This document shows positions 5,422 to 33,135 of a stretch of DNA of 64,000 nucleotides, piece by piece. How positions within the stretch are numbered: position 1 is the first letter of the stretch; the number at the start of each line of letters is the position of its first letter. The stretch covers positions 78,036-142,035 of the forward strand of contig JAFTXJ010000017.1 of NCBI GenBank assembly GCA_017461625.1. The letters are read 5' to 3'. The notes under the pieces are model-generated. The model had not been told where the DNA came from. It worked only from the letters and a program-made list of their open reading frames with translations, and did no database searches. Made by a program: the position numbers and the translations under genes. This stretch comes from Clostridia bacterium (GTDB taxonomy: Bacteria > Bacillota > Clostridia > Oscillospirales > Acutalibacteraceae).

Positions 5422-5529
5422 AAAGCCTCCCCCGAAACCGGGGGAGGTAGTGAGCACAGCGAGCCGGTGGGGGCGTTTTTACCCCCTCAGTCACTTTGTG
5501 ACAGCTCCCCCTATTAAAATATGGGGAGC
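5422..5529. repeat. GC-rich palindromic repeat, right next to the DUF559 3' end
   Basis: The first hairpin is CCTCCCCC-6 nt-GGGGGAGG (5426-5447), followed by a spacer ending in CGGTGGGGG. A second hairpin contains GTCAC-ttt-GTGAC (5490-5502) between C-rich arms. The sequence is much more GC-rich than its surroundings. A second copy of the first part lies at 5902-5953 in the same orientation, so the DUF559 gene sits between two direct copies. It may also act as a terminator for the DUF559 gene. Confidence 0.75.
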
Positions 5530-5886
5530 CTATTCTATCCGTTTCTTGACCTCCGAATCTATATATTCACAAACTCCATAAAAGTTTTTATCAATATCAA
5601 GATTACATACTCTTATAACATCTATATCCAAACTCTCTATCTCTGATGTGCGAATAAAATCTCGCTGTTCGTTTTTCTGAATATAATGGTGTCCGCCGTC
5701 AAGCTCTATAACCAGTTTTGCTTTGGTGCAATAGAAATCCGCAATGTAATCACCAAGCGTTGCTTGCCTGCGGAACCGAACAGGATAAGAGTGCAAAAAT
5801 TCATACCATAGCTTGCGTTCCCACGGTGTCATATTCCTTCTTAATTCACGTGCAAGCGACAGATTGTCTTTGTTATAGTTTTTCAT
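5530..5886 (-). CDS. DUF559 (Vsr-like) endonuclease-domain protein, 118 aa
   Basis: A small PD-(D/E)XK-type nuclease of the DUF559 family, related to very-short-patch repair endonucleases. The visible candidate active-site residues are D50 in 'YIADFYC', then E61 and D63 in 'VIELDGG', followed by H66/H67. The N-terminal part carries the family signature 'LRRNMTPWERKLWYEF'. The start chosen is ATG 5886, preceded by AGGAGG. A longer reading frame upstream only translates the palindromic repeat. A homologue of identical length lies at 32668-33024, also between GC-rich palindromes. Substrate and role are unknown; mobility or repair of the repeats is a hypothesis. Confidence 0.85.
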   Translation of the reverse strand: MKNYNKDNLSLARELRRNMTPWERKLWYEFLHSYPVRFRRQATLGDYIADFYCTKAKLVIELDGGHHYIQKNEQRDFIRTSEIESLDIDVIRVCNLDIDKNFYGVCEYIDSEVKKRIE

Positions 5887-5901
5887 AAAGCCTCCTAAAA
5901 A

Positions 5902-5953
5902 GCCTCCCCCGAAGTTCGGGGGAGGTGGTGAGCGTAAGCGAATCGGTGGGGGC
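5902..5953. repeat. GC-rich palindromic repeat upstream of DUF559
   Basis: CCTCCCCC-7 nt-GGGGGAGG (5903-5925), then a spacer ending CGGTGGGGG, the same layout as the copy at 5425-5474. Its edge supplies sequence just before the DUF559 ribosome site. Confidence 0.75.
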
Positions 5954-5965
5954 TGAGACTTATGT

Positions 5966-6038
5966 AAGTGCTTTTGCGATTTTAGTTGTAAGGCTCCCTT
6001 GTGCAAAGGGAGGCTTACGAAAGTGCTTTTGCGATTTT
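5966..6038. repeat. Palindromic mini-insertion in the parB 3' end with an 18-bp direct duplication
   Basis: The 18-mer AAGTGCTTTTGCGATTTT occurs at 5966-5983 and again at 6021-6038. Between the copies are 37 bp containing a near-perfect 13-bp inverted repeat with a 5-base loop (5988-6018, arms GTAAGGCTCCCTT and AAGGGAGGCTTAC). The right copy encodes parB's current C-terminal 'KIAKAL'. The left copy still reads K-I-A-K-A-L-T-stop in the parB direction. This is the footprint expected if the hairpin inserted near the stop codon and duplicated its target; the inserted palindrome now supplies the parB stop. Confidence 0.8.
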
Positions 6039-32585: not shown

Positions 32586-32602
32586 TTATGAATTTTTAGA
32601 AT

Positions 32603-32660
32603 CCCCCAGTCATTTTCTTCAAAAATGCCAGCCCCCTTTAGGGCAAGGGGGCCTGAGAGG
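32603..32660. repeat. GC-rich palindromic repeat upstream of the second DUF559 gene
   Basis: CCCCC-AGTCA...TGCCAGC-CCCCC (32603-32636) resembles the AGTCA/TGACAGC unit at 5482-5511. It is followed by GCCCCCTT/AAGGGGGC (32631-32652). The repeat's tail GAGAGGTGA also serves as the DUF559 ribosome site. Confidence 0.65.
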
Positions 32661-33024: not shown

Positions 33025-33030
33025 CCTTTG

Positions 33031-33073
33031 CCCTCCTTGCCTAAAGGAGGGGGGACCGCGAAGCGGTGGGAGG
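33031..33073. repeat. GC-rich palindromic repeat downstream of the second DUF559 gene
   Basis: CCCTCCTT-5 nt-AAGGAGGG (33031-33051) and ACCGC-gaa-GCGGT (33055-33067), then GGGAGG. Same two-hairpin layout as the copies near 5.4 and 5.9 kb, though the sequence has diverged. Confidence 0.65.
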
Positions 33074-33135
33074 ATAAAAAGAGCATTTTTAACATTAAAA
33101 ATTCAAGATAAAATATAATAATAGGAGAGATTAAT

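Follow-up and report, generated by a model that had tools for sequence, protein, structure and literature searches.

Background

Short palindromic repeats fill the intergenic space of bacteria, and some of their classes are without a known mobilising enzyme; as given in the accessible part of the cited source, an example is the CGTC class of repetitive extragenic palindromes (REPs), which has no known dedicated transposase and whose stems start with A/T pairs and bear a CGTC tag (PMC3733652). The same accessible part describes the systems (REPtrons) of REPs and REP-associated tyrosine transposases (RAYTs), in which short palindromes, often in inverted pairs 3' of genes, go with one gene and with gene-less copies (PMC3733652). 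Here we analyse a 64-kb stretch (the window) of the Clostridia bacterium contig JAFTXJ010000017.1, in which genes of DUF559, a family of unknown function, are flanked by palindromic units. We propose, with a probability of roughly 0.6, that a DUF559 gene together with its flanking units makes up a single short element, which inserts at new sites through palindrome-directed cutting and copying. The mobility of the unit is well supported by comparison of sequences, and we infer that DUF559 is its mover. A preliminary description of the window had cast DUF559 as a RAYT-like agent of the palindromes, a reading that is partly supported by the results below.

DUF559 genes and their palindromic units

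The window contains two DUF559 genes at the coordinates previously assigned to them (Table 1), whose products scored 91.7 (gene 1) and 99.7 bits (gene 2) in a Pfam scan against the curated cut-off of 20.6 for DUF559 (PF04480). Apart from DUF559, the scan of both proteins recovered only weak, sub-cut-off relatives and no tyrosine (HUH) transposase gene. A full palindromic unit usually comprises two hairpins and a purine-rich tail. Gene 1 had been described as bracketed by two repeats of the same orientation, and the stems (37 nt, 73% alike) and GGTGGGGG tails (17 nt, 88% alike) of two units do form direct repeats spaced 478-479 bp; the units at this gene nevertheless number three, as a further, inverted one directly adjoins its stop codon. 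The CCTCCCCC-loop-GGGGGAGG structure of the direct repeats is present in two copies in the window (5426-5447 and 5903-5925) and in 0 of 100 shuffles. The hairpins of gene 2 (32631-32652 and 33031-33051) are of the same kind as those of gene 1, as had been claimed, but not of the same sequence. On a different contig the genome carries a third DUF559 gene, with two such units upstream but none seen on its downstream side, so that 3/3 genes of the genome have units on one flank or both. The window holds six hairpins of this kind, all but one of them no more than 110 bp from its two DUF559 genes; single-strand DNA fold z-scores range from -2.7 to -5.0 for the five window units and a gene-less palindrome at the 3' end of parB.

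Table 1. Coordinates of the DUF559 genes, palindromic units and parB-linked features in the window
Feature	Position	Strand	Structure or context	Fold z
DUF559 nuclease gene 1, 118 aa	5530-5886	-	3' of parB, co-directional with parB	
Palindromic unit, gene 1	5899-5953	+	stem-loop CCTCCCCCGAAGTTCGGGGGAGG, then spacer, GGTGGGGG tail	-4.15
Palindromic unit, gene 1, orientation as 5899-5953	5422-5474	+	CCTCCCCCGAAACCGGGGGAGG and tail	-3.04
Inverted two-hairpin unit, third at gene 1	5481-5531	-	GGCTCCCC..GGGGGAGC, GTCAC..GTGAC, tail GAGGGGG	-5.04
Duplicated parB 3' end	5955-6038	.	AAAATCGCAAAAGCACTT twice around 37-bp gene-less palindrome	
Gene-less palindrome at parB 3' end, beside gene 1	5984-6016	+		-4.99
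DUF559 nuclease gene 2, 118 aa	32668-33024	+		
Palindromic unit upstream of gene 2	32598-32654	-	two hairpins, tail CTGGGGG	-2.74
Palindromic unit downstream of gene 2	33028-33075	+	two hairpins, tail GGTGGGAGG	-3.22

Enrichment of hairpins beside DUF559 genes

Equal frequency of the palindromes away from DUF559 genes had been set beforehand as an outcome that would speak against the association; in the genus, the class and a set of named loci we found them concentrated beside these genes. The genus set comprised 21 contexts with 22 DUF559 genes, namely the window and 20 chosen 20-kb regions around DUF559 genes (L026 and L036 were excluded), and hairpins were called with an arm of at least 7 in the genus density scan and of at least 8 in the named-locus and intergenic-gap counts. 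Of the 50 hairpins outside genes in the genus set, 40 were no more than 300 bp from one of the 22 genes and ten were more than 1 kb away, the density being 7.08/kb within 100 bp of DUF559 vs about 0.024/kb beyond 1 kb (~290-fold). By locus, 21/22 DUF559 genes had a hairpin as against 3/199 other intergenic gaps (p 3.5e-25), and so did 26/26 parsed loci of the class sample (29 fetched, with L151, L153 and L155 outside the 26). The named loci were the best 80 of 572 confirmed relatives from one scan, mainly of alpha-, beta- and gammaproteobacteria, with desulfobacterial, Chloroflexi, Nitrospirae and Planctomycetes records as well. A pyrimidine-armed hairpin was found within 300 bp of 70/80 of these genes (71/80 in a second count at the same arm length) vs 12/263 gaps (p 7e-49), and with one mismatch allowed at 76/80 vs 20/263. 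The pyrimidine arm was 5' in 138 of the 140 hairpins near DUF559 in the named loci, a tally of nearby hairpins only. Among 13 loci fetched from 38 plasmid and phage records with a DUF559 match, 12 had perfect-arm palindromes by eye, including those of Cyanobacteria and Deinococcus, the palindromes of the E. coli locus being mainly imperfect.

These counts bear on the view of DUF559 as a Vsr-like mismatch-repair nuclease of the host and of the palindromes as ordinary terminators or stability hairpins. The rarity of such hairpins in other intergenic gaps (12/263) makes this highly improbable, as do the patchy presence of the unit, its several copies per genome, their common sharp edges and the existence of decayed copies (L018, L023 and L384).

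Another transposase might instead move the palindromes, with DUF559 being cargo caught between two of them. PF01797 matches (RAYT-type or related), which occur in 12/18 genus genomes, offer a candidate, and many of the sampled gene-less copies described below lie within a larger composite with outer inverted repeats. However, only 6/22 fetched PF01797 loci had any scan hairpin; the three hairpins within 300 bp of a PF01797 match (L086, L093 and L097) were all of the opposite arm polarity, and none with a 5' pyrimidine arm was found within that distance in the 22 loci, L083 having one at ~310 bp. The pattern is not a RAYT effect, since the RAYT loci of the genus lack it. Moreover, in different phyla the gene next to such palindromes is DUF559, a constancy not expected of random cargo, and we regard this account as improbable.

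We also observed DUF559 genes with palindromes inside catabolic and housekeeping clusters, namely between two NAD(P) transhydrogenase subunit genes (L167), in an hpa cluster (L162) and between paaD and paaZ (L170). One Legionella anisa genome has ten DUF559 matches, mostly fragments (L329, L339, L346 and L349-L355), and at L253 no such palindrome occurs within 300 bp.

Unit edges and co-variation of hairpin and protein

Alignment revealed that gene and palindromes constitute a unit of ~450 bp with sharp edges: units of different families align from left hairpin to right hairpin with unrelated flanks (e.g. L133 1413-1861 and L146 1100-1551). Five loci from five families (L135, L137, L138, L141 and L145) share a longer stretch of ~600 to 800 bp, which, extending beyond the hairpins, suggests that a larger carrier may exist; this stretch includes promoter-like sequence outside the hairpins. 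The DUF559 proteins of these five loci are 91-94% identical, which points to horizontal transfer, the divergence of the hosts lying outside the comparison.

Hairpin similarity tracks DUF559 protein similarity (Mantel r 0.56 and 0.58, p 0.001), and several DUF559 clades may coexist in a single genome, every one with a hairpin type of its own (e.g. L005, L019 and L029 in G004). The unit lies 3' of a co-directional gene in 31/32 clear genus loci and 16/18 class loci. A purine-rich signal precedes the DUF559 start codon in 44/57 loci, in 40 of which a unit lies <60 nt upstream (counts taken with no control set); hence the tail may serve as a ribosome-binding site, and the gene may need read-through. 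Across 14 aligned units a GTAG tag at the palindrome foot is not conserved, although the window copy at 5422-5474 has one, and the stems begin with G/C pairs, the A/T start typical of CGTC REPs being absent.

Occupied and unoccupied sites

Empty sites, whose absence the preliminary description had set as an outcome against its reading, were found in sister species at parB, at argS and at a site in Mesorhizobium. parB is present in 18/18 genus genomes; a unit lies directly 3' of its stop codon in two, a short gap leads to the next gene in 13, other sequence without such a unit follows in two, and in one (G011) an open reading frame takes its place, which by its motif looks RAYT-like to us and which the PF01797 search did not call. 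In the window, the 37-bp gene-less palindrome provides the present stop codon of parB, and the 18-bp duplication that flanks it is exact. At argS, G007 has a unit, G011 a gene-less palindrome in the same place and G000 neither; the gene end is repeated beyond the insert in both G007 and G011. (The gene names serS and ArgS and the label RIME are presumed designations.) For the Mesorhizobium site 61 genomes were searched, the marker gene was present in 59, and 30 loci (L356-L385) were fetched and classified by eye. DUF559 is present in 11 of the 30, of which eight belong to clade A and three to clade B; the two clades are 62-71% alike and have different hairpins. Gene-less palindromes of several types occur at nine loci. 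A further six show a junction of ~10 bp and one a short, hairpin-less junction; two loci are degenerate, and one is cut off by the contig end. Some of the Mesorhizobium units encroach on the final codons of the gene upstream (KKKGLW* against KKKGLWNA*). On sequence grounds, the existence of occupied and unoccupied versions of one site at all three places qualifies the unit as a mobile element.

A rival account is homing, whereby a free-standing DUF559 enzyme would cut the 3' ends of particular genes in unit-less genomes and repair from the donor would copy the unit there, the palindromes being end structures rather than substrate. Next to 3hrl, itself a DUF559 structure, a DUF559 model is closest in fold to the homing endonuclease I-Bth0305I, to which a profile comparison also gave a hit (E 2e-4); the model resembles Vsr as well, and the fold and predicted catalytic residues are those of EDxHD/Vsr-like nucleases. 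The same sites are occupied across genera: the conserved gene that follows the Mesorhizobium site lies downstream of the unit in Mesorhizobium (L224) and Shinella (L228) alike, and units precede dnaG in Sphingomonas (L166 and L188) and Sphingopyxis (L215), by annotation and by eye. Further, a second copy of the host gene's 3' end lies beyond the unit in L005 and L023 (by both versions of our duplication test), in L013 (by one) and, less strongly, in L139, where the repeat is below threshold and the peptides match by eye. In L005, L013 and L139 the repeated ends differ, by eye, mostly synonymously, as expected of a co-converted donor end and as if the copy upstream of the unit derived from a related gene; such a pattern agrees with one-sided repair from a donor and keeps homing alive as a rival. 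Against it stand the occurrence of the DUF559 unit in unrelated places, the spread of gene-less palindromes through genomes and the co-variation of hairpin and protein, and we consider homing possible but unlikely.

Repeats and gene-less copies across genomes

A covariance model (R1) built from 14 chosen units, most of them flanking DUF559 genes, recovered 0-107 copies per genome in the 18 genus genomes, with many matches at contig ends. Genomes with more DUF559 genes tend to have more copies (Spearman 0.60, p 0.008, n=18, no correction for kinship); the gene counts exclude two matches that lie in long reading frames. Likewise, among 291 class genomes at least five repeats were found in 36/37 with a strong DUF559 match vs 13/254 without one (p 6.6e-34, uncorrected for kinship), the 37 being hand-picked genomes with ~48 bits or more and a repeat count of 21 meaning at least 21.

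Weighing of the element and its proposed mechanism

The sharp ~450-bp unit, its patchy occupancy 3' of genes and the clade-matched hairpins, together with near-alike copies across bacterial families and gene-less pairs in the same genomes, suggest that gene and palindromes behave as one element. Several observations weigh against this. Target-site duplication is inconstant: besides the 18 bp at parB and the repeated gene end at argS, it is absent at most of 46 loci, of which six pass a 99% null (0.46 expected) in either version of the test, with several of the six due to nested repeats. The 13 class genomes mentioned above have repeats without a strong DUF559 match, as do, within the genus, G006 (31 repeats) and G013 (22) without any match, while G014 has three matches yet only 10 repeats. 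By eye, most of 20 gene-less copies sampled from G003, G004, G005 and G012 are embedded in larger composites. The outer inverted repeats of these composites were not seen at DUF559 units, and the copies may therefore be amplified by a different enzyme. Four of the 80 named loci are without such a hairpin even by the relaxed rule, linkage alone could explain the co-variation of hairpin and protein, and the co-directional bias is weak in named loci (28/42 vs 194/357 background pairs). Finally, no clean empty site was found for the E. coli DUF559 gene ycjD, which occupies a single site in the genomes listed and has imperfect palindromes.

The composites (among L289-L308 and L321-L326), whose outer inverted ends are AAATTCGGGTTTGTCGGG ... 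ACAAACCCGAATTT in G004, are closely similar within a genome. The E. coli ycjD gene is matched in 3,365 of 5,426 genomes; in three opened genomes without it an efflux operon adjoins fabI, and two opened copies are broken, one by IS1 (L174) and one by truncation (L178).

If DUF559 moves the element, it would, as a Vsr/homing-endonuclease-like enzyme, recognise its cognate palindrome as a hairpin, cruciform or duplex and cut or nick there, after which host repair would copy the DNA bounded by the palindromes to further intergenic positions. Palindrome pairs without a gene would represent a non-autonomous form moved in trans. Expression of the DUF559 gene would depend on read-through from the gene upstream, and the purine-rich palindrome tail may act as its ribosome-binding site.

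We tentatively suggest, as a broader proposal that may well need revision, that these units represent an undescribed class of mobile elements consisting solely of palindromic ends and a DUF559 enzyme of Vsr/homing-endonuclease fold, which might spread by hairpin-directed cutting and repair, be the source of the adjoining pyrimidine-armed repeats in Firmicutes, Proteobacteria, Cyanobacteria, Deinococcus and other phyla, and have the gene-less pairs as non-autonomous members. Its place inside such a unit in several phyla makes DUF559 a good candidate for the missing enzyme that spreads common palindromic repeats. If the two belong together, one open protein family and one open repeat class would account for each other; a nuclease-run element would join the tyrosine-transposase-run REPs, and YcjD and the Caulobacter VsrA could be reread as relatives or domesticated forms of mobile-element enzymes. 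A search lying mostly outside the subscription literature found no published report linking DUF559 to palindromic repeats.

Comparison with known systems

To our knowledge, neither REPtrons nor EDxHD homing endonucleases include a unit of DUF559 and palindromes. Like the REP/RAYT systems, as far as the accessible part of their description goes, the DUF559 units combine short palindromes with one associated gene and gene-less copies genome-wide (PMC3733652). They differ in that the enzyme is a Vsr-fold nuclease rather than a tyrosine (HUH) transposase, in the lack of a conserved GTAG tag, and in hairpins with a pyrimidine arm 5' and a purine arm 3'. The earlier analogy to REPs and RAYTs thus fits in the co-variation of hairpin and protein and in their co-occurrence across genomes but fails for the enzyme, whose modelled fold is that of Vsr and I-Bth0305I. 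The units share with CGTC REPs palindromes without a known dedicated transposase (PMC3733652), and are unlike them in starting with G/C pairs rather than with an A/T stem start and CGTC tag. As in miniature inverted-repeat transposable elements, gene-less inverted pairs exist beside a gene-bearing full unit, but the latter carries a nuclease rather than a DDE transposase and makes no constant target duplication. E. coli YcjD is likewise a DUF559 protein, although, unlike the units, its gene occupies a single site (sapF-fabI) among the genomes listed and its palindromes are imperfect. Unlike the EDxHD/Vsr-like homing endonucleases such as I-Bth0305I, DUF559 is palindrome-bounded and present at many sites, with no intron or intein seen around it. 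In behaviour, therefore, the closest described systems are the REPtrons, and in protein the EDxHD homing endonucleases.
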